A stretch of 64,000 nucleotides of DNA from a virus. Shown here piece by piece: positions 3,517 to 52,058 of the stretch. The stretch is taken from positions 1-64,000 of IMG/VR virus record IMGVR_UViG_3300033153_006968. The stretch is one strand, 5' to 3'. The notes beneath the pieces were generated by a model. The model was not told where the DNA came from. It worked only from the letters and a program-made list of their open reading frames with translations, and did not search any database. Each line of letters begins with the position of its first letter. Within the stretch, counting starts at the first letter, position 1. Both the position numbers and the translations under genes were made by a program.

Positions 3517-3518
3517 GT

Positions 3519-4784: not shown

Positions 4785-4795
4785 TGTTTCCTTTG

Positions 4796-5809
4796 TTATG
4801 ATAGTTTCTTTAAACAAGCATCTACTATCATATCAGAAGTGATCATCTTAAAGCAAGAATGATTTAGCTTGCAGGAAGAACTCCAACAAGCAGAACACAT
4901 CAAATTTTCCGCCGGCCAAACAGCAGAAGCATTCGGATAATAGTTTATCCTGGCTCTCGGATCTGTATCTCCGAATATCGCAACAGTTGGTACTTCTAGT
5001 GCACCAGCAAGATGAAGCATAACGCTATCGGGACAAAGAAGCAGGTCACAATTTTTCATCACTCCTGCTACGCGACGGATATCTACATCTCTTAAAACAG
5101 TAAGTCCTGGAATGCTTTCCCACATAATATTAGATGCTGGATCGGAAGTATGCCTGAGAAGGATTAATTTGAATCCTTTCTGAGATAGGGTCTGTAGAGT
5201 ATTCCTCATGGTAAGATTGTCTAAATTTCTACGCGATGCAGAAGTAAAGATGTGAACAAGAATTACCTTGTCGTTAATGTTGAAGCCTCGCTTAGAGATA
5301 AAGGCATCTCCCGCTTCTAATTCTTGTGGCTGTATGAAATATCTAACTGTCTTATCTTCAGTTGGAATACCAGCATGCTCTGCAAAAATATCTATTCTAT
5401 TCTTGGGAGGGTTATTAGGATTGGCTTCATATCCTATTGCGGGACAATGAAGATTTATAACAATATCATAATTCCCTTCATCTAGGCTGTCTCTATCTAT
5501 AACTTCGTCTACATCCGGATTGTGCTTTAGTACCTTAACTATAGCTCCACCAAGGTATCTAGTATTAGTGGCATAGGTAATATGAACGTCCTCATTGAAC
5601 ATTACCTTGAGTCCACGTAGGAGGGGAGTAGTCATTAGGATATCTCCTACCCCTTCTCCGCGAAGAACGCAGATTCTTGGTCTATGTGTGTCTAGTAATT
5701 GTTTTAATCGATTTATTCTTTTGGGAGGATTAAGATTTGCTTGTCCAGTAGCATATGGACGCATTCTTTGAAACTTTACAATACCGTCGTCGCCTAGTTT
5801 CCAGGGCAT
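4796..5809 (-). CDS. Glycosyltransferase family 9 (ADP-heptose:LPS heptosyltransferase-like)
   Basis: A 337-aa protein. The N-terminal GT9 motif is CVLRGEGVGDILMTTPLLRG (from about residue 47), and the C-terminal donor motif is CPDSVMLHLAGALEVPTVAI (about 257-277) followed by FGDTDP, matching the heptosyltransferase pattern (D-G-H-A-A-FG). A cysteine-rich stretch near the end (CSACWSSSC) is seen in many GT9 proteins. ATG start with AAGGAG four bases upstream. Family members build LPS core, but phage-encoded relatives can act on other acceptors. It opens the glycan cluster directly after the actin-like gene, 12 nt apart. Confidence 0.88.
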   Translation of the reverse strand: MPWKLGDDGIVKFQRMRPYATGQANLNPPKRINRLKQLLDTHRPRICVLRGEGVGDILMTTPLLRGLKVMFNEDVHITYATNTRYLGGAIVKVLKHNPDVDEVIDRDSLDEGNYDIVINLHCPAIGYEANPNNPPKNRIDIFAEHAGIPTEDKTVRYFIQPQELEAGDAFISKRGFNINDKVILVHIFTSASRRNLDNLTMRNTLQTLSQKGFKLILLRHTSDPASNIMWESIPGLTVLRDVDIRRVAGVMKNCDLLLCPDSVMLHLAGALEVPTVAIFGDTDPRARINYYPNASAVWPAENLMCSACWSSSCKLNHSCFKMITSDMIVDACLKKLS

Positions 5810-29766: not shown

Positions 29767-30989
29767 TAACTCGCAATTGTAAACAAGATCGGACTGGTTC
29801 CGGCGTATTGATTCTCGACAATGACTCGTTCATCCTCTTCTGCGCTATAGTCGTTAAGGAGGATTCCTCGAATTTTATTGTCTTCAAGCTTTGTAGGTTT
29901 GTAGGTATAAATGTTTTCAAAAGGTTTAGTGGCGCTTCCAACATTTTTGATTTCGGAAGATGTAGCCATTACACGTTCAATCAGTTCATTCACGATCATA
30001 TCTTCATCTATATCTAGACTGTTAATATAGTCTGTTACATTTGATGTCACAGCATTCAGTATATTAGTTTCTTCTGATGCTGTCATTCTTTTTTTGAGAG
30101 TTAGTTTACCAACAAGAGAGATTCCTACTTCAATAGGGGCTCTTACACTCGGCACTACACCATGCGCTACAACTTTAAGCACTGCTTCGTTCACTGCGCT
30201 AATGAGGCCAGTCGGAACAGTAGGAGTCACAGCTTTGATTAAGACATCAAAAGTTCCTATACCTCTGAAATATGGAATAATTACTAAATCTGCTACACCT
30301 GGAGTGTTTAGAACGGCTAGTCTAACTGATGTAAGATTGGCCTTTTCGGCACTAGTTACTTGTTTAGATATACGAAAACGATAATTGGTATCTATCTCTC
30401 CGTCCTCTCCTTTGATAACTTCTGAATCGTTAACGACTTTGAGAGAATCATCTGCACTGCCTGTATAGTTAGTGAAGTTATGATATTTTAATTGCCGCGC
30501 GCCAACATTGCTTCTTGTTCCAGGCTGAACTGCCTGTGCAGCAACATACACTTCAGAGAGAGAAGAAGACAAAATAACATTATAGGGAATCCTATATGTT
30601 ACTCCCGTACCAGCAAGAGCTGTGCCTACACTTGTTCCAGAAGATAAAAGTATTGAATTGCCATTATTGACATCTCCAAATGTACCACTATCTACATAGA
30701 ATCTTATTACCCTTTCAGAAGAAGAAACAGAAGCGGTCTCTTGACCAAGCTTCTCTATTCCCATCATGTCGCCAATAAATTCTAGATATTTTCCATCTGC
30801 GCCGACAAGAAGAGCTTGAGCGATATTCACGTCGAACTTCTGATACATCTTGCCGAGCTTACCAGAAAGAGCATTTACTATAGCTCGCGTCTTGCTACCA
30901 ACAGAGGTTTTTGTAATGGGAGTATTGTCTATGACTTCAATAAGTAAATCGCCAAATATTTTATCTTTGGACTCTGAGAATAACGGCAT
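29766..30989 (-). CDS. Baseplate J / gp6-like wedge protein
   Basis: A 407-aa protein with the features of the Baseplate_J family: N-terminal helix pair (KTSVGSKTRAIVNALSGKLG), beta-domain with VYVAAQAVQPGTRSNVGARQ, then GEDGEIDTNYRFRISKQVT and the conserved VRLAVLNTPGVADLVIIPYF, ending in a C-terminal alpha-beta domain. In Mu and P2 this protein (gp47/gpJ) forms the wedge ring with gp25-like and gpI-like partners. The gp25-like gene lies immediately upstream with TAATG overlap, matching that partner order. Confidence 0.85.
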   Translation of the reverse strand: MPLFSESKDKIFGDLLIEVIDNTPITKTSVGSKTRAIVNALSGKLGKMYQKFDVNIAQALLVGADGKYLEFIGDMMGIEKLGQETASVSSSERVIRFYVDSGTFGDVNNGNSILLSSGTSVGTALAGTGVTYRIPYNVILSSSLSEVYVAAQAVQPGTRSNVGARQLKYHNFTNYTGSADDSLKVVNDSEVIKGEDGEIDTNYRFRISKQVTSAEKANLTSVRLAVLNTPGVADLVIIPYFRGIGTFDVLIKAVTPTVPTGLISAVNEAVLKVVAHGVVPSVRAPIEVGISLVGKLTLKKRMTASEETNILNAVTSNVTDYINSLDIDEDMIVNELIERVMATSSEIKNVGSATKPFENIYTYKPTKLEDNKIRGILLNDYSAEEDERVIVENQYAGTSPILFTIAS

Positions 30990-31839: not shown

Positions 31840-32259
31840 CTAAAGTAGGCCCGGGGAAAAAATCCTATAGGCACCTACAGCTACTTCATTCAGGTAAGGC
31901 GTCTTTCTAAGAAAGCTGTGATCTTCGTCCCCTATCACTTCAATTATAGCATTTCTTGGACTAAGTTTTCCTCTCCAATATATTCTAACAACTAAACCTT
32001 CTCTGAGTGCACCCCAAAGAAGATAAATCTCAGACAACGGAGTGGCCAGTGGCAAAAACGCATTAGAGATCTCGTTCCCTACCTTTCCGTCTGCCTCTAA
32101 TTTTTTAACCTTTACCTGACCACTGTCATAGTTAACGGCACTTATGATCCCATAGGTAACTCTGTCCTGCTTGTCGGAAGGCTGCTGCGCTTGACGATTT
32201 GTTTCGTGCAAGGCTTGCTGTAGTTCGTTTTTAGGTGCGGAAGAATTATATCCTGGCAT
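31840..32259 (-). CDS. gpV-like OB-fold baseplate spike/hub protein
   Basis: A 139-aa protein. Residues 33-115 form an OB-fold pattern of the phage_base_V type: VTYGIISAVNYDSGQVKVKK, SNAFLPLATPLSEIYLLWGA, LREGLVVRIYWRGKLSPRNA and IIEVIG. The preceding 30 residues are Gln/Asn-rich. In contractile phages the OB domain docks the spike on the hub. Coupled by TAATG to the hub gene. Confidence 0.72.
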   Translation of the reverse strand: MPGYNSSAPKNELQQALHETNRQAQQPSDKQDRVTYGIISAVNYDSGQVKVKKLEADGKVGNEISNAFLPLATPLSEIYLLWGALREGLVVRIYWRGKLSPRNAIIEVIGDEDHSFLRKTPYLNEVAVGAYRIFSPGLL

Positions 32260-35200
32260 TATTCTGGTGGACTAATTATATCTCCTAATAAATAATTACT
32301 AATATCTCCTTGGGTATGACCGGCCCAACTATTAGGATGAAGTTTATCATAAACGTCATTAAGATACAATGGAGCAGTCCTTTCAGCTTCTTTGATCCAT
32401 TTGCCAATCCTCTGAATAAAGCTGCCTCCAGTATGTCTGTTGGGAAGCCCTCCTATCATAGGTTTGTTTCCAAGAACTAACGGAGAGAATCTAAAAGGAT
32501 GAGCAAGCTGAGTTCTCGTTATTAACTTTCTGAATATGAATATCCCGAGCATTCCGGTAATAGAGGACGCCCCTTTAACGCCTATAGCATTCTCGGAAGA
32601 ATTAAAAAACATCCTGGCGATTGGGGCAAATGGAGCACTAAGCGGAGCTAACACACCCTGCGTTACTGCTGCGCCAACAGTGTCAATACTTCCCACTCCT
32701 ACAGAAGCTTTAACTATAGAACCAAGACTCTGAAGACCTATTGATTTGAGACCCTGTTCTACTATCAATCCCATCGCATCTGCCGTAGCCATTGTAGAAT
32801 GTTGATTAACGTGAACCATAAGATCAGGAGTTATCTCTGTTATAAATCCGTTCTTCTGACTAAATCGATGTATAACTTGCTCTACTTCTATCGGTCCATA
32901 CATGTCGTTATATTCGTCAAAAATATAGACAACATCAAAAGGACGGATTTTAGGATTGCCAACAGAAACAATAGAGCCTGTATACGCTTCCTTTAAAGAG
33001 TTGAATAAAAGAGAAACGCAATAATTTTTTGCCATCTCATAACCTACACAATTAGGATACTGGGCAAATAGCTCTCTAACTTCTTCATCTGGAATAGCCG
33101 CATCTGCTTTCAGAGTGAAGGCCTTAGCATCATCAAAATTTAGTCGTGCTGTATCGTTGTCTACATAAGGAGAATCATCGCTATACTGTAGAGTTACGGT
33201 ATTAAAAGTATTATGTGCCGAAGAAGAAATAGAATTGTGGAGAATATGCATAGAGCTTGTCAGAACATGATATGAACGAAATGGTTTTATAAAGCCCTTA
33301 TCTAAGGCATAAATCTTTGCAATCTTCTTTACCCAAGCTTCCTGTTCTTTCTTGTCATTGGTCGTAACGGCATTCTCTAATTCTTCTGACGGGAGAGAGT
33401 CATTACCGACCATTCTCTCCTGTGCTCTTTGTTGTTCCTCTCCTTCAACTCCGTCTTTAACAATTTTCCTCATCTGCTCCATTACGTCTTCTTCAGAATG
33501 ATCTGGATCTCTAGCGAAATAAAGCTGATCTGGCAATCCAAAAAACATTGTCATCCTAGGGCCATGTTTGCCTTGATAAGGAACTGGGCAAGCGATATAA
33601 CTTGGATGTCTAAGAGTCATCTCTTGAAATACGTCCCATACAGTTGTGTGATATAGAGAATAAGTAGGAGTCGTTGAAAAATTGCCAAGAAATCTATCCA
33701 TTAGACCAAGAACATTGCTTCCCTGCGGCGCAAAAATATTATCGTCTTGCGGCGAAGGTTGGAATTTCCACCGATTCTTAAGCAGACTGTATCCGGCATT
33801 CTTTCCAAATTCACCACCTTCCCATCTACCGAAATGTACAACCTCTGGTGAAGCAAGAAGCTGTTCAAGCATTGCAAAGGTTCTGCCATCTCCATCAAAC
33901 CACCCACCGAACTCTTTTACTTCCCCATGGATCGACTGAATAAGTTCTATGGCAAAGCTCTGACAAACAATCTCTACCAAATCGGTACTCTCAGAAAATT
34001 GCACATCTGTTATTACGCCATTAAAAACAACGTCTAGCTCATCTGGATTATTGCTGTATCCCAAATTAAGTTGTACCTGTATGCCAGGCTGCAACATAAG
34101 AGAAGCGATCGGATTTTCTTTAGCTGTGTTCGTTGCAGAGCCTCCTTTTTCTACTGCAATATTTCCCTCTTCGTCAAGATTTTTAGTTGGATCAGCGGCA
34201 AAAGAAAACTTCCTATTACTAAGAACTCCAGATATATTTGTCATTCTAATTCTGCACAAATCTGCAGCAATCTTTCTACTTCTAATTACTTCTATCTCTT
34301 GAATCGCACTATATGAAAAGAAATCATCAAAGGCAAATTTCTTTCTTTCGCCCAAATCGCTTTCAATAAAATAAAGCTTGAAGGTAGGATAGGCGCGTTT
34401 CATGCCATACCCTTGTCCGCTCTTCAATTCTTTTTCGAATTGTTCAATACTCTTCGTAAATAGGCTTTCGTTATTTGGATCAAGGCCAGCTATAGGTCCT
34501 TGAGATTTAGTTGTTTCTCCTTTGAGAATCGGTAAAGGATCTGTATGTTGACCATCTTTTTCCATTTGAAAATGGAGATGAGGTCCTGTTGAATAACCAG
34601 TAGTGCCCATATGTCCTATTAATTTGCCGACTTCTACCGTAAGAGCCCTATTAACGCCATCGTCAGAAATTCCTAAATCGGCAGAACGATATAAAATACT
34701 AGCCCAACCCTGAGTAATTTCGTCCCACATTAGATGAGAATATTTAGTAATCCATCCGTTAGCATGCTGTATTACTAAAGTCACTCCCTTTGCATCTGCT
34801 CTCGCTTGCTGCGCGATTTCTAAAGTTGGATGAAATATAACTTTGCCATAATCACTTATTTTTATAATCCGTCCAGAGGCAGATGCCAATATCTCACTAC
34901 CTCTACTGTCTCTCCAATTATCTGCAGCAAGATCTAGTCCTTTATGAAAGGAAGGCTTCTTTTCGCCCTGTTTTTTTGCAACAGGATCGTCTCTCTTCCC
35001 ATACCTAGATGTAATCCTACGGACAGTAGAACGGGTGGGCCACTTAAAACTAGGATCCTTGCCAGAATCATGATCGGCAGGATTCTCATATTCACTAGGT
35101 GGCAAAAAAGACAATACTTCATTCGTTTCAAATCTATGCTGTACGGCAGCCGCATTAGAAGGAGGAGATACATTACTCTCTATTGAATTTCTATAATTGG

Positions 35201-38081
35201 TGTTAAGGTTGTTGTCTTGATTATCTCCATCGCCGGGCTGGATAGATACAAGCTCAATAGGCTTTTCAGCCTCATAAGAAGCACAGCCTAAAGAGCCAAC
35301 CAGCTGATTAGGAGCCATAGCGTTATCTTTGAAAGAGCTATCTTTCTTTGAGATATAATCGTCTACCGCTCCGTTATCTGCTTCGCCATCTTTTTCGTCT
35401 GCTTTAGATTGTCTTTCTATTAAATCTTTGTTCTCTCTCGAAAACATGCCCGTCAATAAACTAGATTTCTCTAGACCGAGTATATCCTTCTCGTACACAT
35501 TCTTAAACCAGTCACCCTCTACTTGCTCTTGTGTCTCTTTTGCTTCAATAATGGCATCCTTTGCATCGTTCATAGCTTCGATAGGAATGAGATTATCTAC
35601 AACATCATTTTGCGGCTCAAAGAAATAAAAATCAGGATCAATGAAAGCAGCTATTCCAACGTTCTTTAGAGCTAGTCCAGATTCCTCATACAAGCCATTC
35701 AATTTGTTATATGCGTTCTTAGACAGATCGTCAGAGCTTGCCTGAAGCGTAGAAAGAACATCCCTAATGGGAAAGTCAGGATAATTATCTGCGCCGGCAG
35801 AAAGACCAGTCTTATTCATTGACTCTCTAACCTCTTTGAACTGGGGAAGATCTCGTAAACTCTTAGTATTTAAAATTTTATCAAGGAATTTCTGCGTAAA
35901 AACTGCCCATTCCTGAAAGCTATTATTGATAAGAGCATTTAATCTAATGTTGTCTTCAGTTCCAATCCCTTCTACGATATCTTCAACGCTTGTATCTCGA
36001 AATTGTCCCATCCCTATACTTCCAAGAAGAGCTTGTTCTTCTTGTCCTTGATTATATGCGTCTATAATTTTTTCGCTTTTAACCTGAGTATCTCCAAGGT
36101 TATGTTCTGATACATAAGATTTTCCATAAAAATCACTTCTAAATGTATTAATATATCCTTGTCCTTTCGCTCTTCTAATAGAGTTGTATATTTCTGTTAA
36201 ATCTTCGTTAACTCTCTCTATACTTATTAAATCTTTATTCTTTAAAAGTAAAAGATCTGCCACTATTTCTTTAGCTAAAACTGAATTATTCCAAGGTCCA
36301 ATTAAATTTCCTAAATTGAGAACTAATTTTTTAACAAAATTCGCAAGATTTTCCGCATACTCGGAACAAAGTTTTGCAAACCGTGCATTTCTACCGTTGT
36401 TTTCAGGACCAGAATATTCATAATATTTTAAGGGAGAAAGAGCAACTCCAAATGCTTGCTTCCCAGATTCCTGAATTTCGATCTTTTCATGAGTTGTTTT
36501 ATAGTTTAGACCTAAAAAGAAATGTTCTGTAGCTCCTTGTATTTCATATAGTTTATCTGGATAAAATTTAATATTTTTTTCTATAATCTCTGCAATCTTT
36601 GACCTTAAATCCTGACCGCTTGTAAAAGATCCACTAGCTTGAAAATTCTCCCTAGTGTACTCTGTCAAAGGATTATCTACGAGAACAAGGGCACCCTGAT
36701 AACTGCCAGGTTCTCCCTCTATGTTCTCAACAACGAAACTCTCTGCAAGGAACCCTTCGAGTCCACACATGTTAACTATGTCATTTTCAATCTTGATGTT
36801 TCTGTGTCCGGCGGGAATATTCCTATATTTTAAAGATTGATCTTCCACCGCAGAATAGAAAGAAGAAAGCTTCTCTATAGCGCTTTCCATAGTTGTAGCA
36901 AAAGAAATAACTACTTCAGCGTCTATACTTCCTATATGTTGAAAAGATGGGAATGGATGTCCCATTAGAGGAAGCATTGCAAGGATATTCTCAAAAGAAA
37001 TAGATATACTTTGTATGACTAATCCTGTGTCGTTGAAGTCTAAACTTACCCCGCGAGAAAGAAGAATGGTATCTTCCTTATCATATTTGTCTTTACCGTC
37101 TGGATTCTTCTGAAGAGAAGGAGAACCTTTGAAAGAAACGGCACTACCATTTATTTGAACAACGGTCCACTCAGTCATATATTCGTATTTAGAACTAGAT
37201 AGTTGATTAGTTAAAACGTTCCTAAATTTGCTCAATACTTGAGTCGCAGGCATATCGTCAAGCATAGAGGTCATATCACCGACTAATTCTCTAACGTTTG
37301 TCTCTGCCCATCTCTTGTCGGCGACTTCTTTAGAGAGCATATCTCGAATGCCTTTTATATCCTGATTCTCTTTCCCTTCAGCGCCAGTCATTAAAGAGGC
37401 TAGATTAGAGCGAATACTCTTAATAATCTCAATTTCTTTTTCTAGTTGTTCGTATTTTCTTATTGTAATAGAACCAAATTGTTTGAAACGAGCGGTCAAT
37501 CCAGTCTGCAAACTTCCGACATCTCTGTATCCGAAATCGCTAGTGCGAAACGCCCTTCTCTGCTCCGCATGATAAAGCATTTTCCAAGCCTTAGAATCTG
37601 CTGGATTGAAAACTGGCTTAGGTTCCCATATATGAGATTTGAATGCAAAGTCTCTTGTGAATGGGAAATAATTAAACCAACAAAAATGAAAATTAACAGT
37701 AATTACATTTGTGTCTTGATTGTCTTTAACGATCTCTATCTGTTTAACTGCTATAGCCATATTCTGAATATTGTTACTTCCAAGAATAGACTTTCTAAGG
37801 AATTGATTTTCGATAAAACAGAAAGGAGTTACGCGGATTTGAGAGATAATATTGCGCAACTTAGAAAGCCCATTTGTTAGATCTCCTATTTTATTCCCTG
37901 GAGATGGATTGTCTGTGAATTCCGCAGTTACATAGATGTCAAGAGTGGAGTAGCCAGACTTAGATTTGACAGATGAACGAGTCCTAAGCGTCTGCCACTT
38001 GTGATTAAATGAACGTCTATCTATTCTTATATTTTTGGGAGGAATATCAAGAATTATGTCATTGATCTGGAATGAACTCAT
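32259..38081 (-). CDS. Giant baseplate hub with M23 (lysostaphin-like) peptidase domain
   Basis: A 1940-aa protein. The approximately 1010-1185 region is an M23 zinc peptidase: H1046 and D1050 in FHKGLDLAA, HLM of TKYSHLMW, and H1168/H1170 in GPHLHFQM supply the metal and catalytic ligands, all present. The C-terminal 650 residues have the hub/late-control-D type pattern ending in IRPFDVVYIFDEYNDMYGPI and VEQVIHRFSQKNGFITEITP. The N-terminal part resembles LysM-linked tail proteins (FQINDIILDIPPKNIRIDRR). It probably builds the tail-tip hub and digests peptidoglycan during entry. Very long for a hub, fusing roles that T4 splits. Confidence 0.85.
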   Translation of the reverse strand: MSSFQINDIILDIPPKNIRIDRRSFNHKWQTLRTRSSVKSKSGYSTLDIYVTAEFTDNPSPGNKIGDLTNGLSKLRNIISQIRVTPFCFIENQFLRKSILGSNNIQNMAIAVKQIEIVKDNQDTNVITVNFHFCWFNYFPFTRDFAFKSHIWEPKPVFNPADSKAWKMLYHAEQRRAFRTSDFGYRDVGSLQTGLTARFKQFGSITIRKYEQLEKEIEIIKSIRSNLASLMTGAEGKENQDIKGIRDMLSKEVADKRWAETNVRELVGDMTSMLDDMPATQVLSKFRNVLTNQLSSSKYEYMTEWTVVQINGSAVSFKGSPSLQKNPDGKDKYDKEDTILLSRGVSLDFNDTGLVIQSISISFENILAMLPLMGHPFPSFQHIGSIDAEVVISFATTMESAIEKLSSFYSAVEDQSLKYRNIPAGHRNIKIENDIVNMCGLEGFLAESFVVENIEGEPGSYQGALVLVDNPLTEYTRENFQASGSFTSGQDLRSKIAEIIEKNIKFYPDKLYEIQGATEHFFLGLNYKTTHEKIEIQESGKQAFGVALSPLKYYEYSGPENNGRNARFAKLCSEYAENLANFVKKLVLNLGNLIGPWNNSVLAKEIVADLLLLKNKDLISIERVNEDLTEIYNSIRRAKGQGYINTFRSDFYGKSYVSEHNLGDTQVKSEKIIDAYNQGQEEQALLGSIGMGQFRDTSVEDIVEGIGTEDNIRLNALINNSFQEWAVFTQKFLDKILNTKSLRDLPQFKEVRESMNKTGLSAGADNYPDFPIRDVLSTLQASSDDLSKNAYNKLNGLYEESGLALKNVGIAAFIDPDFYFFEPQNDVVDNLIPIEAMNDAKDAIIEAKETQEQVEGDWFKNVYEKDILGLEKSSLLTGMFSRENKDLIERQSKADEKDGEADNGAVDDYISKKDSSFKDNAMAPNQLVGSLGCASYEAEKPIELVSIQPGDGDNQDNNLNTNYRNSIESNVSPPSNAAAVQHRFETNEVLSFLPPSEYENPADHDSGKDPSFKWPTRSTVRRITSRYGKRDDPVAKKQGEKKPSFHKGLDLAADNWRDSRGSEILASASGRIIKISDYGKVIFHPTLEIAQQARADAKGVTLVIQHANGWITKYSHLMWDEITQGWASILYRSADLGISDDGVNRALTVEVGKLIGHMGTTGYSTGPHLHFQMEKDGQHTDPLPILKGETTKSQGPIAGLDPNNESLFTKSIEQFEKELKSGQGYGMKRAYPTFKLYFIESDLGERKKFAFDDFFSYSAIQEIEVIRSRKIAADLCRIRMTNISGVLSNRKFSFAADPTKNLDEEGNIAVEKGGSATNTAKENPIASLMLQPGIQVQLNLGYSNNPDELDVVFNGVITDVQFSESTDLVEIVCQSFAIELIQSIHGEVKEFGGWFDGDGRTFAMLEQLLASPEVVHFGRWEGGEFGKNAGYSLLKNRWKFQPSPQDDNIFAPQGSNVLGLMDRFLGNFSTTPTYSLYHTTVWDVFQEMTLRHPSYIACPVPYQGKHGPRMTMFFGLPDQLYFARDPDHSEEDVMEQMRKIVKDGVEGEEQQRAQERMVGNDSLPSEELENAVTTNDKKEQEAWVKKIAKIYALDKGFIKPFRSYHVLTSSMHILHNSISSSAHNTFNTVTLQYSDDSPYVDNDTARLNFDDAKAFTLKADAAIPDEEVRELFAQYPNCVGYEMAKNYCVSLLFNSLKEAYTGSIVSVGNPKIRPFDVVYIFDEYNDMYGPIEVEQVIHRFSQKNGFITEITPDLMVHVNQHSTMATADAMGLIVEQGLKSIGLQSLGSIVKASVGVGSIDTVGAAVTQGVLAPLSAPFAPIARMFFNSSENAIGVKGASSITGMLGIFIFRKLITRTQLAHPFRFSPLVLGNKPMIGGLPNRHTGGSFIQRIGKWIKEAERTAPLYLNDVYDKLHPNSWAGHTQGDISNYLLGDIISPPE

Positions 38082-41000
38082 CTACCTCAAAACTCTATTT
38101 GCTATTGTTGACGGACTTAAGCTATTACTATTATCTCTTACATTTACGTTAATTCTATCAGCTCCTGTAGCAGCTCCTAACCTACTTGTAAAATCTCTAC
38201 TCATTTGCTTAGTCGTTACGCGCGCAGAAACATTCGTTGCTTGGCCAGGGTTAACGCGAACTGTAGGAGTATACATTCTTGACGGAGGAGAAGGACTGCC
38301 TACTGCTTGGCCAGGAGGCATTACGTCTTCTGGTTTCATTTGAGAACCAGCCTTATTCACCCTCATCATAGGTCTAGAATCTGGTATCATCACTGAGCCA
38401 GGACCTACAAGGCTGTCTGGCTTACTTAATGCTGCGGCTATAGCAAGAGAACCAGCAAAGCCGAAACCAACAGCTTTCTTATGTTTCAGAACTCCCAATC
38501 CCGCCGAAGCAAGAAAATTCTTCGCAGTCATGGCAGCTTTAGAAACATTAGCTCCCAACCCAGTTGCTACACCTCCTGTATAGGCTAGATATTTTCCGAG
38601 TTGCTCAACGGTAGGAGCCATTCTGCCCTGCGCCATACGGGCCATTTTGTCCATTCCTGTAGCTTCAGAGATTTCGAGAGCAGATATAATATCCTGTGAT
38701 GCCTGCCTCACATTAGGAGCAGGAAGAACGTTGCTCATTTTTATTCCATAATGTTTTTCAACATCTTTTATTATTGCAGATCCTGGATCTATTGTCACTC
38801 CTTCAGTTAGATATCTCCCCGCAAGAGATCCTTCGTCCATAGCTCCCATAATGGTGCTTTCAAGCCTAGCGGCATTTTTATCCCGTAAACTTGACTGAAG
38901 AGTTTTGAAATAGTTTTCCATCTGATATTCAAGAACTTCTCTTTGGCCATGGTGTTTACCTGCAATAGCCATCTGTTCTCCGTGCTGAAGTACGAACAAA
39001 GCATCTGCCGTCCTTTGTTTAGATAGTCCCGATTCTACTATCGCCTTTCTTGCCATCGAGATGTCGGTAGATACCAAAGGAGTCCACTTCTGAGCAGTAC
39101 CTAGTTTCATAGCGTCGGCAACCATTCCTTGTCGAGTCGTCAACTCTCCTAAAGCGACCGTTCCAGATCTTGCTTTAATGATCTGAGTCCTAATAGAGTG
39201 TTGTACCTGCGCTTGAGTATATATGTTATCTTGATATAAAAGTTGCTCTCCAATTTTTTCGCCAATCTTAGGCTTCATGAAAGCTGCGGCGATAATATCT
39301 GCATCAAAGTCGGCCAACATACCTGCTGCAGGAGATAGAGTAAGGGCCGCTTCTTTCCCTCCAGATTTGAGAGAGGTGGCAAAAGAAGGTAAAGATATAA
39401 TCGGTTCAGTAATTCCTTCTATCGCTCTGATATTTACCCCCTGAATAGATCCAGCGGCCGTAAAAGGGTGTCTCATAAGTATCCCGGGAGACCCAGATCC
39501 TAAAAATTGCTTCTCTATCTTTGTAACTTCAGCCCTAGAATAAACTCCGGTATCTACCAACTCTTCAAGCATTTGCCTTCCATGCCCTATCGGGATCCCG
39601 ACCTCTGCAGCGTGTGCCGGAGTAAATCCCTTTACCTTTGTCAACCCGGTAAAAAATCTTGAACCAAGAATCTTTCTCTTCTTGCCGAATAAAGCTCCTG
39701 CGCCTTCGCCATATGGCGCCTGTTGTTTTTGAATTCCTCCTATGAAGTCTCTAATAGCTACATCTGCATCAAGTAAGTCAGCGCTCTTCTCGGCAGATAG
39801 TTGTCTTGCTAGAGTATGATAAATACCAGCTACATCTCCTTTTACAGTATCTCCTGCAGCGGTCATATAAGGCTTTAATATATCTCCGCCGGGAATAAAA
39901 ACTTCTCTCTTCCCAGCCTTTAGCCATCCACCTTCTTTACCGCCTGCCTCTAACCAAGCTTGAAATCCTGCTGAGTCATATCCTTTAACTCCAATATCCC
40001 ACATACGAGCACCCTTCCCAGGAGAAGCCATGCCTTCAACAGATTGTAACGTTTTGGTCAGGGCATCATATGTAGCGGTAGCTCTTGGGTCCGTCATGGC
40101 AGCTCTCCGAGCAAAGTCCTCTGCAATCTCTTCTCCAAGTGCTCCATGTTGTCCCGCGCGCAAAAGATCAAATGCTCTAGATTCTATAGATCCTAACTTT
40201 CCAGCACCAGTTCTTTCCATTGTCTCGCCAAACATAGACTGAGATATACCCAGAGATAATCCCTCAGTTCCAAGCAAAGCGTCAAATTGATGCACTGAAA
40301 TACCTGCTTCTTTCATAGCAAATCGCTTCACGCCTTTGATAAAACCTTCACCTTCACCATATTTTCCAGCTATATAAGAGGCAAACACATTTGGATTTCG
40401 CATAAACGAAGCGAGTTTACCGTTGCGACGAATGGCATCTTCCGTTCTCGTCCCTTCGATCATATCCCAAAGACCAGTGATAATCTGGTTGTTTCTGTTG
40501 GCCATCTTTAATTTATTAGCAGAAGCTATCTGCAAAGGTTCTCCAGTCGCCATAGCGTCCAAAAATGGCCGACGTTGCTCCGGAGACATTCCTGCAGTTA
40601 AATCCCATACCGACTGTCTAACATCTGCCGGATCTGCAAATTTCATCATCGCTTTGAGACCACCAAAAGCACCAAAGATCTTTTGAGCTATACCAGGTCT
40701 ATGAGTCTGTAAATAATAAAGAGATTTTAAATCTCCCTTACCGACAGTAGAAAACCCTTCAACTCCCAACAACTTCATATTGCTTTCATAAGCAACGCCT
40801 TTGCCTTCCGGCGTCCAACCAAGCATCTCACCTGGTGTAAAAGTTGCGCCTTTAGCGATACGCTCTTCTACGCCTTCAACAAATGTCTTAAAATGTACTG
40901 GATCAGGCATTCTAAATGCTTCAAGCATTCTTCTTGTCTGAGGAGTTCCTGTAATAATACTTTCGCCTTCTCCCAGCCCTAGCTTCTGAAGTTGGGTGGC

Positions 41001-42353
41001 GTATTTTTCTGGATCTACATAGAGAGTTCTTATATGTGGTGCAGCATAGGCTCCAAAATCTTTACGCCAACCTTGTGTTTCAAATATGGACCATTTAGAT
41101 CCCTGATTCATAAACTCTTCAACGGCAGCAGGAGTCATTCTCCATTCTCTAGCTGCTTGCATGGGCCTATTACCAAAAGAGGCGACTTCTGGAGTTGGAG
41201 ACCAAGCTCTTGGATCAAGAGTGGATAGCCTCCATTTGGATAGATTCTTAGGACTCGTAGAAGGATATAGTCCACCTTGTTCCATAATACGAGCCCCTTC
41301 TCGACTCGTAGGTTCTCTAAATATATCTCCTTCAAGAATACGAACGTCTACAGCTTGTCCGCGAATATTTAATTCACTCTTTCTAGCAGCGTTTTTTATA
41401 CTAGATGGAAGATTAGGGACATGCGGCATAGCAAATATATCTCTCTCATATACTGATTTCAATACTTTTTGAATATCAAAGGCGGATTTATATTCGCCCG
41501 CAGCAAGACTTGGTAATATCGTCTGTTCTATATCTTTAAGATAATACTGAGTCCTCGTCATCTTCTCTAACAGATTGCCACGAGGATCAAAAATATGTGC
41601 TCCAACAGCTACCCTCTTCGAAGACTGGGTAAGGCCTTCTACTAATGCTCCTTTCTGAGACATCGGAATAGTCACGTCAAATTTATGTTTCCCATATCTG
41701 AAAGGCATCTTGTATGTCCCAAAACCTTCTTGTTGCCAACCTTTACGAGTATAATATTTGACCTCTCCAGCAGCAGTAACGCCTGTATCTTTAGTAAACT
41801 CTTTATGAAATGCCTGTAATTCAGCAGGTAATTCATTGATGGCTTTATTCATTGCGCGCGGAAAAGAAAGATTTTCTACTCTCTCAACTGTAGGCATCTT
41901 GCCGATTACCTCCATATGTTTACCAAGTAGTCCTACATTCTTTTTAAACTTTCGATAAGCAGACGCCATAAATAGAGAGTTATTACGCTGAAGTGTTTGC
42001 TTTATAGATGTGTAGACTTTGTTGGCAGGCATAGTTTTTATATCGCCGGCGAATGAAAGAACTTCCCCTGCTAATGGATCTGTAGATTGTATAGCTTCTA
42101 TCCATGCCCTTCTAGCTATCTCTGCACCTTCTTTAGTCCTGAAAACACCAGCCATCTCATTCATTAAGCTCATATCTATAGCCGAAACAGCTTCTCTTGG
42201 CGCGGCAGATACAGCTTTATTCAGGAATGAAGAGCCCATACTTGGAGGAACAAAAGCACCAGCCTTAGCTGCTTGATGAATAGCGAAACCAGAACCAGCA
42301 ACAAAAGGAGATGCTACTAATAAATCTTTCAAAAAGTTCCTATCGTCAGGCAC
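38082..42353 (-). CDS. Giant virion protein with RNA-polymerase-beta'-like catalytic motifs
   Basis: A 1423-aa protein between the tape-measure candidate and the hub. Four motifs occur in the order and approximate spacing of the beta' double-psi barrel: GKKRKILGSR (890-899; beta' has GK-G-LLGKR), EVGIP (917-921; beta' QCGLP), MRHPFTAAGSIQGVNIRAIE (960-979; beta' NRAPTLHR, RdRp R-P-x-H-P-G-D-I) and LADFDADII (1013-1021; beta' NADFDGD). All three metal Asp are present (D1015, D1017, D1019), the glycine is Ala. GEQMAIAGKHHG at 1125-1136 resembles the AVD-xx-KTG block of single-chain polymerases. GTG start with AAGGAAGG upstream. A virion RNA polymerase is my inference; a degenerate relative without activity is possible. 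Confidence 0.58.
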   Translation of the reverse strand: MPDDRNFLKDLLVASPFVAGSGFAIHQAAKAGAFVPPSMGSSFLNKAVSAAPREAVSAIDMSLMNEMAGVFRTKEGAEIARRAWIEAIQSTDPLAGEVLSFAGDIKTMPANKVYTSIKQTLQRNNSLFMASAYRKFKKNVGLLGKHMEVIGKMPTVERVENLSFPRAMNKAINELPAELQAFHKEFTKDTGVTAAGEVKYYTRKGWQQEGFGTYKMPFRYGKHKFDVTIPMSQKGALVEGLTQSSKRVAVGAHIFDPRGNLLEKMTRTQYYLKDIEQTILPSLAAGEYKSAFDIQKVLKSVYERDIFAMPHVPNLPSSIKNAARKSELNIRGQAVDVRILEGDIFREPTSREGARIMEQGGLYPSTSPKNLSKWRLSTLDPRAWSPTPEVASFGNRPMQAAREWRMTPAAVEEFMNQGSKWSIFETQGWRKDFGAYAAPHIRTLYVDPEKYATQLQKLGLGEGESIITGTPQTRRMLEAFRMPDPVHFKTFVEGVEERIAKGATFTPGEMLGWTPEGKGVAYESNMKLLGVEGFSTVGKGDLKSLYYLQTHRPGIAQKIFGAFGGLKAMMKFADPADVRQSVWDLTAGMSPEQRRPFLDAMATGEPLQIASANKLKMANRNNQIITGLWDMIEGTRTEDAIRRNGKLASFMRNPNVFASYIAGKYGEGEGFIKGVKRFAMKEAGISVHQFDALLGTEGLSLGISQSMFGETMERTGAGKLGSIESRAFDLLRAGQHGALGEEIAEDFARRAAMTDPRATATYDALTKTLQSVEGMASPGKGARMWDIGVKGYDSAGFQAWLEAGGKEGGWLKAGKREVFIPGGDILKPYMTAAGDTVKGDVAGIYHTLARQLSAEKSADLLDADVAIRDFIGGIQKQQAPYGEGAGALFGKKRKILGSRFFTGLTKVKGFTPAHAAEVGIPIGHGRQMLEELVDTGVYSRAEVTKIEKQFLGSGSPGILMRHPFTAAGSIQGVNIRAIEGITEPIISLPSFATSLKSGGKEAALTLSPAAGMLADFDADIIAAAFMKPKIGEKIGEQLLYQDNIYTQAQVQHSIRTQIIKARSGTVALGELTTRQGMVADAMKLGTAQKWTPLVSTDISMARKAIVESGLSKQRTADALFVLQHGEQMAIAGKHHGQREVLEYQMENYFKTLQSSLRDKNAARLESTIMGAMDEGSLAGRYLTEGVTIDPGSAIIKDVEKHYGIKMSNVLPAPNVRQASQDIISALEISEATGMDKMARMAQGRMAPTVEQLGKYLAYTGGVATGLGANVSKAAMTAKNFLASAGLGVLKHKKAVGFGFAGSLAIAAALSKPDSLVGPGSVMIPDSRPMMRVNKAGSQMKPEDVMPPGQAVGSPSPPSRMYTPTVRVNPGQATNVSARVTTKQMSRDFTSRLGAATGADRINVNVRDNSNSLSPSTIANRVLR

Positions 42354-45300
42354 TTAACACCTTCCTTATGGCTTCAACAGCCTCATCGGTCTTATCTTCT
42401 TCAACTTCTATATCTACGGACGTTCCACTTCCAGATCGAGAAGTAATGAACGAACTACTATTCTCCATCTTATCAACAAAAAACAATTCGTTAAGTCTAC
42501 CCTGTACATCTTCTCTAGAGAGCTTTTCAGACTCAAGCAGAGGTTGGATAGCCTCTTCGTCTATAAACTCTTTGTAGGGCAATTCTGCGCCTCTGGAGGG
42601 CCATAAATTAAGCTCGATAGGATCTCCTCCAATCTCCTGGACAAGTTTGAGTTTAACATCTTCTAAATCAACTGAAGGATGAAAGCCCGCCCAATCCGCC
42701 CCGGGAATAGAAGGAACCTGAGAAAGTAACTTGGTTCTTCTATACCAATCAGGGTAACTCTCTCCTTTAAGCTTTGTAGCTACATATTCTGCAAATAGAT
42801 CTTTGCTTGTAGGGAGTCCTTCTGTTCGAGCCTCGTCGTAAACTTGATCTATCTCTTCTTCTGCTTCTGCCTCTTGCTCTTCTGTGAGTACTCCTTCTTT
42901 GATTGCGGTTTTGAGATCTTGAGCATGAACCATCTTCCACCGCGCAAGATAAAGAGACTTTTCATTCTCTGGCACCATCTCTAAGATGCGCGCCCTCTCT
43001 TCATATGACTCGGCACCTTCAAATGCTTGAAAGTAATCTCTTTCTCTTCTCGGGAGTGAGCGATAAATAGATGTATAATTTCTAGTATAAGGACTAACTC
43101 CGAATAACGTTTCGTTCTTCTTTGCTTCGAATTCTTTGACCGCAGCAGTATCATCAGCCATCTGTGCCATATTAGATAACCTTGCATATTTGGTATACTT
43201 GAGAATATCAAAATATTCCTCTATATTTCTGAGATGTTCGGAATGTTCAGGAACGCCTTCGGCACCAAGGGCTCGTCCCATTAATCTTCCGAATGGTTTA
43301 GCAAAGTGTTCAAGAGGGTGTGTCCAGAAAGCACTTGGAGTTCCGTAGAGAACATCCCTCTCATATGCTTCGATAGCAGTTCTAGTATGAACTAGTTTGC
43401 CGCCAGGAGATACAGGAGTCAACTGATCAAAAGCAGTCTCTGCGTTGTGAGCAAGTAGCTCCCAATAGCCACCAAATAATCTATCGGATAAAGAAGTCTC
43501 CTTTGCTCCAGAAGCTTTCCATTCATTCATCGCAATCATCAAGTCAGAACTTTCCTGCCGCGCGGGAGAAAAAATATCGCCCATTGGTGACAGATGTTTA
43601 TATTCTTGAAATTCTATTCTCTGTTTTTTGGATTTAACCTGCTCAAGAGTAGTCTGATATATATCTTCCTCTTGTTCGGACCAATCTCCCCTTGTTCTCT
43701 TCCCTCTTATCTTAGAATAAGTTCTCTTATATTTGTCTGTATATGGAGCCACATCGGCTAATATTTTATATTGATGAATAAGGGGATAGTCCGCAGGGTC
43801 TACGCCTTCTAGCTCTGGATGGAGAGCAGCATATCCAACACCAGGAAGACGTATTTCTCCCATTTGTACTTTGGTAAATGGATCGCCATATTGAATATTA
43901 GGTCCTCTTTCTCCAGGCCCTGGCAACCATTCAGGCATTAAATTTCTAATAGGATTCTGAAGTTCAATCTGTCTTCTTCTATGAGGATACAAACGCCTCC
44001 AGGCTTCACTTAGTCCTGCAAGGCCGCCTAACTCCCTATCCCAATATTCTCTTTCGTAACTAGCTATCCTGCTTGCGCTTTCCAATTGAGACATCTGGTC
44101 AAACCAATCCTGACTACCTGTGAGTTTTTCCTTTATTGCCGAAGAAATAAAACCAGTCAAACCAGGTAATTCAGTTCCTAGTCTATATATCTGCTCACCA
44201 GCCATTTCGGCTAATCCTGGAGCAATAGGAACTCCACCAGGCTCTTGTCCTATCTCTGTAGCTACCCTTCCTCCAAACCCAGGAGCAGGAAGTTTGACTC
44301 CTCTATCAGAGAAAAACTCATCAATGTGCATATATAATTGTGGCTTAATCCATCTGCCTACAGTCTGAGATAATAAAGGTCCAATAAACGGTACATCTTC
44401 AAAAGGTAAACCAGTAGTCGGATAGGGTCTATCCTCATAATGTTCTCTTTCTAGTTCGTAAGTAAATTGACTCTTCCACCATTTAGATACTGGACTTAAT
44501 TCTTCATCTTCTCCCCAGATAGATTTTTCTTTCCCGCGCAACCTAAGCATTGCATAAGTATGTGGACGATAATATCGAATACGGGTACCCTCGTACGGCT
44601 GACGGCCAAGTTCCCACCAACGACTTTTACGTATTGGAACTTCCTGTTCTCCTGAGTAGATACGTCTCAATTCTTCTGGAGATTGTTCCGGAATTAACGC
44701 ACCAGGAATAAAGGGGGCGATGAGAGCCAAGCCAGCAAGAGCACCTGCTCCAATTAGCGCTTTGCTAGGAGTCATTCTGCTCAGTAATTTATTGGTTCCA
44801 GCATTCTCAAAGAATTTCCCCATCTTGGCCCAAGACTCAAACTGCCCATCCAATCTTTGTCGCGCCAAGGAAGAAGATATTCCTTCAGATATTTGAAGGG
44901 CGGCCATCTTCCAAGTCTTATATCCGTAGATTCCAACGCCAATACCCATAGCTCCCATAGCTGGGAAGGCTGCAAGTTTCAGTAAGTCAGTGCTGCCTGG
45001 AGCCACTTCTTTTTGTTTCCGTACAAATTCTTGAAGTCCGGTCACTTCAGCAATCTCTGCCGCTTTGACATGCGCCGCTACAGGAATGGTTGCCAATCCA
45101 TAGGTAAGGCCATGTTCGAACAGGGTTCCCTCAGTTGCTTCGCTGGTACGCGCTGCCCAATCAAGAGTTCCATACCCAAGAGCAAGAGCGCCTAATCCAA
45201 GTCCATACTTTCCAGATAGCCTAGCTAACATCTCAAGACCACCCGCCTCTTTAACTGCAAGATACTTGCCAACAGAGGGCATAAAACGACCAATACCGGG

Positions 45301-46101
45301 TATCTTACTAGGAGAGTCGGCAGTCATTCTGAGTAATCTATTAAACCTCTGTATTTGCTCAGTCCCAAGAGCGCCTAACTTTCTACCCCAGTGTTCTGTT
45401 AGAGTTTTTCCGCCTATTATCTGGGCAGCATATCCTTCACCAAGCTGAGGGTTAACTATAATTTGTTTGCCCCACTTGAATTCAGGAGAAGCAAAGAAAC
45501 GATCAAAAGGAATGGATCCTTTTAATCCAAGTCTACGCGCATAAGCTCCGCCGATATGGGATCTTTCTCCAACTCCAGGAGACGTAATAGCTGAAGCATA
45601 TTTAAGGGCTACATCCCCGCCGCCCCAATAAAGGCTACCTCCTTTGAGAGATACTCCTTCCTGAAGCAATCTCTGGTATGTAAAGGAACCAGGCTTCTCA
45701 CCTATAATACGGGCAAGATATTCGGCGTATTGCTTATTCTTACCTAATAATTCTGGACCAACAACTAATTCGGCTTTTCTTACAGCTGTTTCAAATGGGC
45801 TAAATATATGACTTAATTGGAATGTTCTAAACGCTTTAACGGGAGAGTATTCTTCAAGTGCTCTCAAGCCAGCGACATAGTAATCCCATACATGCTTGCC
45901 CTTTCTTCCGGCAGGCATATACCCTAACGCCCCAATTGCTCCAAGAGTGGCAGCAAAACCAGCTACGCCACCAACTTGTGATCCGATTGGTCGGGTTAAT
46001 TTTTGGGGTTCAGTTGTCCAGTAATCAGGTTGGCTGGTTGGATCTGTTAAAGATGGGCCGTAATAAGACCGTGCAGAATTGAATACAAATTGATTAGCCA
46101 C
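42346..46101 (-). CDS. Tape-measure/tail-interior protein candidate with hydrophobic segments
   Basis: A 1251-aa protein directly downstream of the tail-assembly chaperones, the usual tape-measure position. It has four hydrophobic stretches that could span membranes: about 43-62 (GGVAGFAATLGAIGALGYMP), 297-317 (YGLGLGALALGYGTLDW), 377-396 (FPAMGAMGIGVGIYGYKTW) and 447-472 (LIGAGALAGLALIAPFIPGA). The second half is charged and partly helical with YYRPHTYAMLRLRGKEK and MHIDEFF. No long coiled coil is obvious, so it may be a channel or ejected protein rather than a classical tape measure. GTG start; overlaps the next gene by 8 nt. Could also be partner of the polymerase-like protein, but no beta-subunit motif was found. 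Confidence 0.6.
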   Translation of the reverse strand: MANQFVFNSARSYYGPSLTDPTSQPDYWTTEPQKLTRPIGSQVGGVAGFAATLGAIGALGYMPAGRKGKHVWDYYVAGLRALEEYSPVKAFRTFQLSHIFSPFETAVRKAELVVGPELLGKNKQYAEYLARIIGEKPGSFTYQRLLQEGVSLKGGSLYWGGGDVALKYASAITSPGVGERSHIGGAYARRLGLKGSIPFDRFFASPEFKWGKQIIVNPQLGEGYAAQIIGGKTLTEHWGRKLGALGTEQIQRFNRLLRMTADSPSKIPGIGRFMPSVGKYLAVKEAGGLEMLARLSGKYGLGLGALALGYGTLDWAARTSEATEGTLFEHGLTYGLATIPVAAHVKAAEIAEVTGLQEFVRKQKEVAPGSTDLLKLAAFPAMGAMGIGVGIYGYKTWKMAALQISEGISSSLARQRLDGQFESWAKMGKFFENAGTNKLLSRMTPSKALIGAGALAGLALIAPFIPGALIPEQSPEELRRIYSGEQEVPIRKSRWWELGRQPYEGTRIRYYRPHTYAMLRLRGKEKSIWGEDEELSPVSKWWKSQFTYELEREHYEDRPYPTTGLPFEDVPFIGPLLSQTVGRWIKPQLYMHIDEFFSDRGVKLPAPGFGGRVATEIGQEPGGVPIAPGLAEMAGEQIYRLGTELPGLTGFISSAIKEKLTGSQDWFDQMSQLESASRIASYEREYWDRELGGLAGLSEAWRRLYPHRRRQIELQNPIRNLMPEWLPGPGERGPNIQYGDPFTKVQMGEIRLPGVGYAALHPELEGVDPADYPLIHQYKILADVAPYTDKYKRTYSKIRGKRTRGDWSEQEEDIYQTTLEQVKSKKQRIEFQEYKHLSPMGDIFSPARQESSDLMIAMNEWKASGAKETSLSDRLFGGYWELLAHNAETAFDQLTPVSPGGKLVHTRTAIEAYERDVLYGTPSAFWTHPLEHFAKPFGRLMGRALGAEGVPEHSEHLRNIEEYFDILKYTKYARLSNMAQMADDTAAVKEFEAKKNETLFGVSPYTRNYTSIYRSLPRRERDYFQAFEGAESYEERARILEMVPENEKSLYLARWKMVHAQDLKTAIKEGVLTEEQEAEAEEEIDQVYDEARTEGLPTSKDLFAEYVATKLKGESYPDWYRRTKLLSQVPSIPGADWAGFHPSVDLEDVKLKLVQEIGGDPIELNLWPSRGAELPYKEFIDEEAIQPLLESEKLSREDVQGRLNELFFVDKMENSSSFITSRSGSGTSVDIEVEEDKTDEAVEAIRKVLSA

Positions 46102-50144: not shown

Positions 50145-52058
50145 TTATACCGCAGCCAGTCCGACTGTAACGACGATTTCTCTCAACTCGAATGCGGGAA
50201 CAAGCTTAAGCTGAACAAACGCCTGACCTAGAACACGTTGAGCTGGAGTAGCGGTAACTCTCACCTCATATCTCTGCAAGTCTTGATTCGTAACACGTTG
50301 TTTGCATTTGTTGTCACAAGCAGTTTCAAGAGCTGCAAGTTTAATGCCTGTGATGCCTTCTCCTAAGAAAGGTTCGCCTACTTCGCGAATGTCGTCAATA
50401 ACTGCCTTTACAATGCGAACAGTAGAGAGTCTACGATAGTCGCTGTCCGGACGTGCGGCAGTAGGAGCGTCACTTACAACGATACCTTTAATTTTCTTAT
50501 GGAAGGTAACATAACGAAGACCGGCAAGAAGATCAAGCTTCGCAGTACCAATACGGAACGGAAGAGAAATACTCTTGAGAATCTTGTTAGTAGGAGCACT
50601 CGACGGAGGTAGACCTGAATAAAATCCACCGTAAGTAGCAGCGCCAGTTGCCATATAAGAAGTAGCGCGACTTTGGTTAGCAAGAATCGGATAGGTAGCA
50701 ACTACATTAATATACTTACCAATATCGATAAGATGGTCATTATCGTCAGTTTGCTGGGTTCCATCCATAAATCCGTCGTCAGTTGCGGCAAATCCGCCGG
50801 CATAAAGACCATCTACACCATTTATAATATGGCCAGCAAGACCACCTGAGCTAACTCGACCAGCCATGAACTTGTTACCAAGCAGACCAGTTCCGTTAGT
50901 TGTAATAATAGTATTACCGTTTGCGTCTGTACTAGTAACTGGAACAGTGCCAATCCAAGCTTTTACTTGAGCAGGAGAACGACCATCTGCAGGTTTAACT
51001 CCAATGGCGCTAGTCATCTCGGCACTCTGTTCGCTCTGGCGATAGCAGAAGTCAGCAAGCTGATAAGCAAAGTTAACTTCATGGAAATCGTCAGCGTCTA
51101 AAGCTGTCCCGTCAGTCTTAGTTGTCGAAGAAGCAGAGCCAGCACTCGGAGAAATATTTGCCGCAGCGAAAGTAGGATTGGTAGGATCGTTCGGGAACCA
51201 CCACCAGAAATATTGAGTTCCTAGATACTCTTCGGTATAGAACTTGCCAAGGACATCGTCGTCAGCACCAGCGCTTGCAGGATAGTCAGAGAGGGCAGTA
51301 AGGCCGCGATCGTTAATCTGGCCAGTAGTTAAGTCCATGACATTCAGATCATCAAGATATATATTCATAGGAAGAACTACATCAAGATCTTCGTCTGACA
51401 TAAAGTCATATGCTCGCCAAAGACCTTCGTAAATCTTCGTTCGACATAGAGCACCAGCTCCAGTAGAGCTATTTGGTACACCGTCAGTACCTGCTGTATA
51501 TACGGCAGGACCATCGCCGTCTGCGTCGGCCGCAGCGAGAGTGATAGGAGTTGAAGAAGTTCCTATATCTGAAACTGAACCAGTAGTGCTACCGCTTACA
51601 GCTACTTCGCCATCGTCGATAGCGCTCAGCGGATAAGCAGGATTGTTGTCGTAAATTACTTCGTCATCACTTGCTCTATAGACTCGAAGTCGTCCAGTGG
51701 AAGCTTCGAAAAAGATTAAATAATCAGTACCAGCAGTTGTATCCTTAGAGATAGTTTCTACTGTAAATCCAGTACCATCGCCGACACCAGAAAGAGTTGC
51801 AGAAGTAGCTCCAATACGGAAAAGTTTCAGATTAAGCGCACCGCCGATAATAGCTTCATACATACCTCTGATAAGAGTTCCTGTAGAGCCAAAAGCAGCT
51901 GCAGCGTCTGATGCTTTATCTACGCTGTATAACGTCTCTGAGTCACCACTTGCAGCTGTTCCAACAACACAAACTACAGGATTATCATTCCGCTGTACGA
52001 TAGTTAAAAGACCATCAATTTTATTAGTTCTGACTTCTGCAAGATTTTCAAAAGACAT
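50145..52058 (-). CDS. Tail sheath protein
   Basis: A 637-aa protein. The N-terminus (MSFENLAEVRTNKIDGLLTI, VVCVVGTAASGDSETLYSVD and AFGSTGTLIRGMYEAIIGGA) and the C-terminal sheath domain (RLSTVRIVKAVIDDIREVGE, LAALETACDNKCKQRVTNQD, VTATPAQRVLGQAFVQLKLV) match the contractile sheath fold, ending in an arm strand LREIVVTVGLAAV. The middle 150-450 is the variable insertion. AAGGAGAGG site before the ATG. Polymerises around the tube and contracts on infection. Confidence 0.88.
   Translation of the reverse strand: MSFENLAEVRTNKIDGLLTIVQRNDNPVVCVVGTAASGDSETLYSVDKASDAAAAFGSTGTLIRGMYEAIIGGALNLKLFRIGATSATLSGVGDGTGFTVETISKDTTAGTDYLIFFEASTGRLRVYRASDDEVIYDNNPAYPLSAIDDGEVAVSGSTTGSVSDIGTSSTPITLAAADADGDGPAVYTAGTDGVPNSSTGAGALCRTKIYEGLWRAYDFMSDEDLDVVLPMNIYLDDLNVMDLTTGQINDRGLTALSDYPASAGADDDVLGKFYTEEYLGTQYFWWWFPNDPTNPTFAAANISPSAGSASSTTKTDGTALDADDFHEVNFAYQLADFCYRQSEQSAEMTSAIGVKPADGRSPAQVKAWIGTVPVTSTDANGNTIITTNGTGLLGNKFMAGRVSSGGLAGHIINGVDGLYAGGFAATDDGFMDGTQQTDDNDHLIDIGKYINVVATYPILANQSRATSYMATGAATYGGFYSGLPPSSAPTNKILKSISLPFRIGTAKLDLLAGLRYVTFHKKIKGIVVSDAPTAARPDSDYRRLSTVRIVKAVIDDIREVGEPFLGEGITGIKLAALETACDNKCKQRVTNQDLQRYEVRVTATPAQRVLGQAFVQLKLVPAFELREIVVTVGLAAV

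Follow-up and report, generated by a model that had tools for sequence, protein, structure and literature searches.

We found that the gene at positions 38082 to 42353 of a 64,000-nucleotide stretch of virus DNA (IMG/VR record IMGVR_UViG_3300033153_006968, positions 1 to 64,000; hereafter, the window) likely encodes a divergent double-psi-barrel RNA polymerase (RNAP) borne in the phage tail. The 1423-amino-acid (aa) product is homologous to the catalytic domain of the RNAP beta' subunit and retains its conserved catalytic residues, and the gene occupies a conserved slot among the tail genes, immediately before the gene for a baseplate hub protein with an M23 peptidase domain. The case is strong for homology and more tentative for function. 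A polymerase had already been proposed here from the DNA letters alone (the sequence-only reading); the length of the open reading frame (ORF) and all of the motifs quoted there were found, each at the residue given, and the conservation, profile, and predicted-fold evidence described below argues for the polymerase assignment. The ORF starts with GTG and overlaps the upstream gene, which encodes a 1251-aa protein, by 8 nt. The gene and the segments of its product that carry the argument are as follows.

38082..42353, minus strand: 1423-aa polymerase-like tail-block protein (ORF with translation; full-length BLASTP homologues in IMG/VR)
39657..39686, minus strand: GKKRKILGSR, residues 890-899, matching beta' 'GKkG.iR..ilGsR' (hhalign against the beta' profile)
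39555..39605, minus strand: EVGIPIGHGRQMLEELV, residues 917-933, beginning EVGIP and matching beta' 'cGLP...A.elF' (hhalign)
39441..39473, minus strand: RHP...GSIQ, residues 961-971, matching beta' 'NRxPTlhr.SiQ', with R961 invariant (conservation, hhalign)
39297..39311, minus strand: DFDAD, residues 1015-1019, the metal-site triad, matching beta' DFDGD (Asp invariant in 21/21; aligned to AR9 beta' by hmmsearch)
38952..38978, minus strand: EQMAIAGKH, residues 1126-1134, the 'EQxPISGKH' block after the active site, with K1133 invariant (conservation)
40638..40964, minus strand: beta-rich segment 464-572 with the near-invariant K567, candidate second double-psi beta-barrel (DPBB-B) (model secondary structure, conservation)
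38085..38336, minus strand: C-terminal tail, residues ~1340-1423, '...INVNVRDNSNSLSPSTIANRVL', with a hydrophobic stretch before it (kept in nearly all homologues, polymerase-less ones included)

LADFDADII starts at residue 1013 and GEQMAIAGKHHG at residue 1125; the EQMAIAGKH block may represent the trigger/bridge region.

Searched by itself, the 1423-aa sequence had no match in Pfam or PHROG, no significant one in the PDB, and none by tblastn among 50,697 phage records; a single-sequence search of IMG/VR was also empty. Relatives were reached only via the flanking genes, by scanning IMG/VR with alignments of the hub and upstream proteins. Between the orthologues of these neighbors, the slot holds gp36 in Acinetobacter phage ME3 and gp34 in Bacillus phage KLEB27-3, and an R-x-P...D-x-D-x-D series is present in both (REP...GGDHDQDQ and NRYPTIN...KADYDGD, respectively). 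This slot, which precedes the M23/hub gene, is filled by relatives in over 20 divergent phages and prophages, and many IMG/VR loci carry the series in the gene immediately before the hub. BLASTP with the window protein matched loci L050 (1.6e-100), L056 (4.5e-56), L051 (9e-47), and L049 (3e-29), while distant relatives were joined by PSI-BLAST. Scanning IMG/VR with the polymerase family itself added L083-L093, and a genome-contig scan returned two uninformative metagenome-assembled genome contigs only. In L065 (12238-17600), the gene at the polymerase position is broken up into ORFs of 906 and 874 aa, the second of which contains RWPT...ADTDLD; this is possibly a two-subunit version.

Our beta' profile comprised five phage beta' sequences, Escherichia coli RpoC, and one sequence of cellular type found on an Enterococcus phage contig. 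A profile of the 13-sequence near family aligned to it with an hhalign probability of 95.5% and a score of 68.9, and all four motif blocks were in register. The controls for this score reached at most 23.7 in 100 column shuffles, 22.9 on reversal, 19.5 with the hub profile, and 15.7 with the upstream-protein profile; with the DxDxD block masked, the near family scored 41.2. Disjoint subgroups of 13 near and 5 distant sequences aligned to phage/bacterial beta' with probabilities of 95.6% and 95.1% (scores of 83 and 76.4), both far above shuffles, which reached at most 28; those of the distant subgroup, which is KLEB27-3-like and Bacillus prophage-like, scored ≤27.7. The intermediate subgroup alone scored 34.3 (5.7%). 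Against cellular beta' only, the near family scored 35.3, and the affinity is thus strongest to phage beta'. When all PDB sequences were searched by hmmsearch with the 21-sequence profile, the top matches were two beta' chains of the AR9 non-virion RNAP (E = 1.1e-4 over ~200 residues), in an alignment spanning the GSR, GI, RxPT, and DxDxD blocks, and a profile weighted to distant members reached the PHIKZ055 beta' protein (E = 0.0095).

The predicted fold points in the same direction. An AlphaFold2 model of residues 224-1340, built from the 21-sequence alignment, had a mean predicted local distance difference test score (pLDDT) of 73.7 and a predicted template modeling (TM) score of 0.75, with pLDDT values of ~90 around residues 893-1025. 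A Foldseek search with this model against the PDB gave 62 matches at E ≤ 1e-3 (best E = 1.3e-4), and all 50 listed were RNAP beta' chains. In the fold check proposed in the sequence-only reading, residues 893-1025 came out as a beta-rich domain, modeled with confidence and retrieving beta' chains, the predicted catalytic barrel (DPBB-A); in the model, the Asp triad sits on an irregular segment flanked by strands. Global TM-scores were low (~0.14 of the query), which is expected given that only the catalytic part is shared with RNAPs. The model of a distant member was of low confidence (pLDDT of 53.9) and was used for support only; its top PDB match was AR9 beta' (E = 1.7e-7), and all of its listed matches were RNAP largest-subunit chains. 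N-terminal to the predicted catalytic barrel, the beta-rich segment 464-572 ends near K567 and stands in the right order for DPBB-B. Among the best-named matches in BFVD were giant-virus RNAPs, poxvirus RPO132 (a beta-type subunit), proteins of ME3, and a 'minor tail protein' from a siphovirus. The siphovirus protein, A0A8S5SD80 of ctnpt50, was among the best fold matches (TM of 0.43 of the query) and may represent a further tail-borne polymerase, from a phage with a non-contractile tail.

The conservation alignment contained 21 homologues with 13-29% identity to the window protein (alignment numbering offset, +223). G512, P821, R961, D1015, D1017, D1019, and K1133 (window numbering) are invariant across the 21 sequences, and K567 is nearly so; among the 13 nearest sequences, E1126, Q1127, I1130, K1133, H1134, and G897/S898 are invariant as well. 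The conservation of the motifs in homologues had been set beforehand as a test that could refute the polymerase, and the motifs proved to be conserved, above all the Asp triad, whose three metal-site residues the sequence-only reading had described as kept (D1015/D1017/D1019, 21/21). It had also pointed to an Ala in place of a fixed Gly. The Ala is there, but the Gly of DFDGD is not conserved in the near family, so the Ala in DFDAD of the window protein is unremarkable. We considered that the protein could be a catalytically dead structural relic, whose polymerase fold now serves in the tail channel or in a tape-like role; we regard this as unlikely, although no other alternative fares better. 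The free variation of that Gly and the very low overall identity would fit a relic, but the invariance of the three Asp residues, R961, and K1133 in sequences with 13-29% identity to the window protein speaks for catalysis having been retained.

A relic would also fit the slot itself, which is that of the assigned tape measure of phage 0305phi8-36, orf146 (PMC2147016). The sequence-only reading had placed the gene between tape-measure and hub candidates; this has to be corrected, given that the gene sits in the very slot that the literature gives to the tape measure (PMC2147016). orf146 was named tape measure mainly from its length, and only its last ~60 residues are conserved in BtI1 (PMC2147016). 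Compared by published description, orf146 and its BtI1/BwK1 counterparts resemble the window protein in their slot before the hub and in a conserved C-terminal end, and differ in that no polymerase was recognized there (PMC2147016). The hydrophobic stretch and the C-terminal tail are common to nearly all members of our family, polymerase-less ones included. The length of the slot protein ranges from 198 aa in L047/L048 through 745 aa in L005 and 1423 aa in the window to 2434 aa in KLEB27-3, and this range argues against a tape-measure role; the polymerase-less versions are those of L047/L048, L005, and L053 (805 aa). With only 198 aa in its shortest form, the slot gene is in our judgment unlikely to encode the tape measure: a product of that size cannot set the length of a long tail, which also weighs against a relic. 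The C-terminal ~200 aa are therefore probably a constant tail-docking segment, on which the polymerase looks like cargo. The 198-aa ORF at L047:13788-14381 (also in L048) consists of the C-terminal hydrophobic stretch and docking tail only, so that the gene exists there in a naturally 'empty' form. In Moorella phage MTATph1 (L004, OR602862.1, CDS0027-CDS0031), istA/istB-like insertion-sequence genes interrupt the slot; no polymerase motif is present in this slot, and its N-terminal part has a DnaQ-exonuclease-like region in common with KLEB27-3 gp34.

The window is part of an 85.6-kb virus record, and its genes form a structural block, with terminase and capsid-region genes to the right. From the right, the order is sheath, tube-like proteins, the 1251-aa protein, the 1423-aa protein, the 1940-aa hub/M23 protein, wedge, and, at the left, further baseplate/fiber genes. 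The 1423-aa gene is thus flanked by orthologues of ME3 gp35 and of the hub protein gp37 and lies downstream of the sheath and tube genes, within the structural block. The neighbors that define this setting are as follows.

32259..38081, minus strand: 1940-aa baseplate hub/M23 peptidase protein, next gene (Pfam Peptidase_M23, 5e-15; tblastn to ME3 gp37, 9e-41)
42346..46101, minus strand: 1251-aa virion protein, previous gene, orthologue of ME3 gp35 (BLASTP, 5e-84)
50145..52058, minus strand: tail sheath, marker of a contractile-tail block (PHROG 16991, 4.5e-74)
29766..30989, minus strand: baseplate wedge subunit (PHROG 6, 5.3e-26)

ME3, KLEB27-3, and MTATph1 have related sheath and hub proteins, and the annotation of ME3 ties these relatives to the 0305phi8-36 lineage of long-tailed jumbo myoviruses. 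The upstream 1251-aa protein carries a lineage-wide conserved block, 'NPIxNxMPxWLPG...GDPYxKVPMGExRLPGxGY'; its gene comes right after the small tail genes, and by position it is the better tape-measure candidate. Near the baseplate/fiber genes, positions 1118-4817 of the window hold three tandem glycosyltransferase-like genes of one PHROG (2170). Elsewhere in the same phage (L108:17419-19593; record positions 81419-83593), a 724-aa protein has two copies of a motif like 'FSGKDDxYNTIEGLxHxGxAxRxRRxxTDFGSG,' which the related loci did not show.

The place of a gene is by itself no proof of packaging, and the protein could be a real polymerase that is made late, used inside the cell, and merely located in a structural operon. 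We consider this improbable given that co-location with the hub is conserved and that the C-terminal tail is shared and kept even without the polymerase. KLEB27-3 gp34, moreover, is annotated as a 'structural protein' (the basis of this annotation is not stated), an indirect pointer to the tail-interior location that we suggest for the slot protein. Several relatives also already possess a separate polymerase of the orf99 type, single-chain RNAPs whose genes occur in the same phage lineage, including orf99 of 0305phi8-36 (PMC2147016, PMC7824862). In five relatives (L103-L107), a separate ORF of ~1170-1220 aa with GADxDGDT lies far from the tail block and matches PF05183, three of the five matches being above the cut-off; with the same model, no orf99-type match was obtained in ME3, KLEB27-3, or MTATph1. 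A PF05183 match in the partial 85.6-kb record of the window was discarded (weak, opposite strand, internal stop). Pairs of virion and non-virion RNAPs are known in other phages, and the five relatives with both a tail-slot gene and an orf99-type polymerase resemble them.

It is very doubtful that the protein is some other nucleic-acid enzyme built on a beta'-type barrel, such as a primase-like or PolD-like polymerase, that acts on the entering DNA. Archaeal PolD does have two double-psi-type barrels (PMC10770324), but RNAP beta' chains come out best in both the sequence and the fold searches, and it is to RNAPs that the GSR, R-x-P, and DxDxD blocks align. That an unrelated tape-measure or tail protein shows these motifs by chance, as the empty single-sequence searches might have suggested, is effectively refuted by the agreement of profile, conservation, and fold evidence.

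Several results weigh against a tail-borne, two-barrel polymerase. The near-family full-length profile alone gave no RNAP match in an hmmsearch against the PDB, and detection there requires distant members or profile-profile comparison. For the second barrel, hhalign against a beta profile was not significant (scores of 18-25), so that the single-chain, two-barrel architecture is inferred. L005/L054, L047/L048, L053, and MTATph1 are without the polymerase part, so the polymerase is not essential to the tail.

Taken together, we propose that the viruses of this lineage probably bring along a transcription enzyme of their own and inject it together with the DNA. Residues ~860-1160 would form the beta'-type catalytic barrel and bind two metal ions via D1015/D1017/D1019, and the part before ~860 would probably supply the second barrel and accessory domains, such that the enzyme could work as one chain. 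The last ~100-150 residues, with the hydrophobic stretch and the conserved tail, may anchor the polymerase to the tail interior or hub in the virion of the window phage. At infection, the polymerase would pass down the tube together with the DNA and transcribe the first genes that enter the cell, after which a second polymerase, encoded by the orf99-type gene in several relatives, or the host enzyme could take over.

The virion RNAP of phiKZ is packaged in the head, and the giant, virion-borne, ejected RNAP of the N4 type has a T7-type fold that is unrelated to that of the window protein, in which no significant Pfam match to an N4-type RNAP was found. The beta' subunits of AR9/PBS1 and phiKZ are nearest to the tail protein by sequence profile and fold search; these are separate subunits, whereas here one long chain is encoded in the tail block. 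With orf99, YonO, and QDE-1, the window protein would share a single-chain double-barrel organization, but these are encoded outside the structural block and form a separate family, and comparison of our tail-protein profile with an orf99-type profile scored 22.9, which is control level.

The sequence-only reading had drawn its comparison with virion RNAPs that are not in the tail hub block. The tail-block location stands and is conserved across the lineage, but a virion polymerase in a tail protein was already known, from one phage group: gp96 of P23-45, a virion RNAP fused to the N terminus of a 5002-aa tape measure in a non-contractile tail (PMC10770324). The P23-45 genome also encodes a second, non-virion RNAP, and the tape-measure-fused polymerase is modeled to transcribe pre-early genes during DNA entry (PMC10770324). 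gp96 is the closest functional precedent and a working analogue, in that a double-barrel RNAP resides in a tail-interior protein of a long-tailed phage, as is proposed for the window protein. It differs from the proteins described here, which belong to a contractile lineage, are ~1400-2450 residues long, carry the RNAP toward the C-terminal half, and are accompanied by a separate hub/peptidase gene. We do not claim membership in the gp96 family because sequence similarity was tested and not found (hhalign probability of 0.1-0.3%).

Our searches of the open literature, with subscription papers and supplementary tables outside this scope, found no tail-borne RNAP described in the 0305phi8-36/ME3 lineage, although some members may already be listed in the two-RNAP survey of the P23-45 paper. 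With somewhat less confidence than in the polymerase assignment itself, we lean toward an ancient, widespread, and hitherto unrecognized family of tail-borne virion RNAPs in this lineage, related by sequence to beta' and not to P23-45 gp96, which would mean more than one origin of tail-borne polymerases and would make the 'tape measure' of the lineage polymerase cargo on a constant docking tail. This would suggest what a large protein of isolated phages (ME3 gp36, KLEB27-3 gp34), so far 'hypothetical' or 'tape measure,' likely does and would add a distinct beta'-like group to the polymerases used for reconstructing the origin of cellular RNA polymerase. How a folded polymerase could get through a contractile tail tube is a further question. 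If true, a large phage lineage would generally rely on tail-delivered, host-independent first transcription, which would then no longer be the peculiarity of one Thermus phage group.

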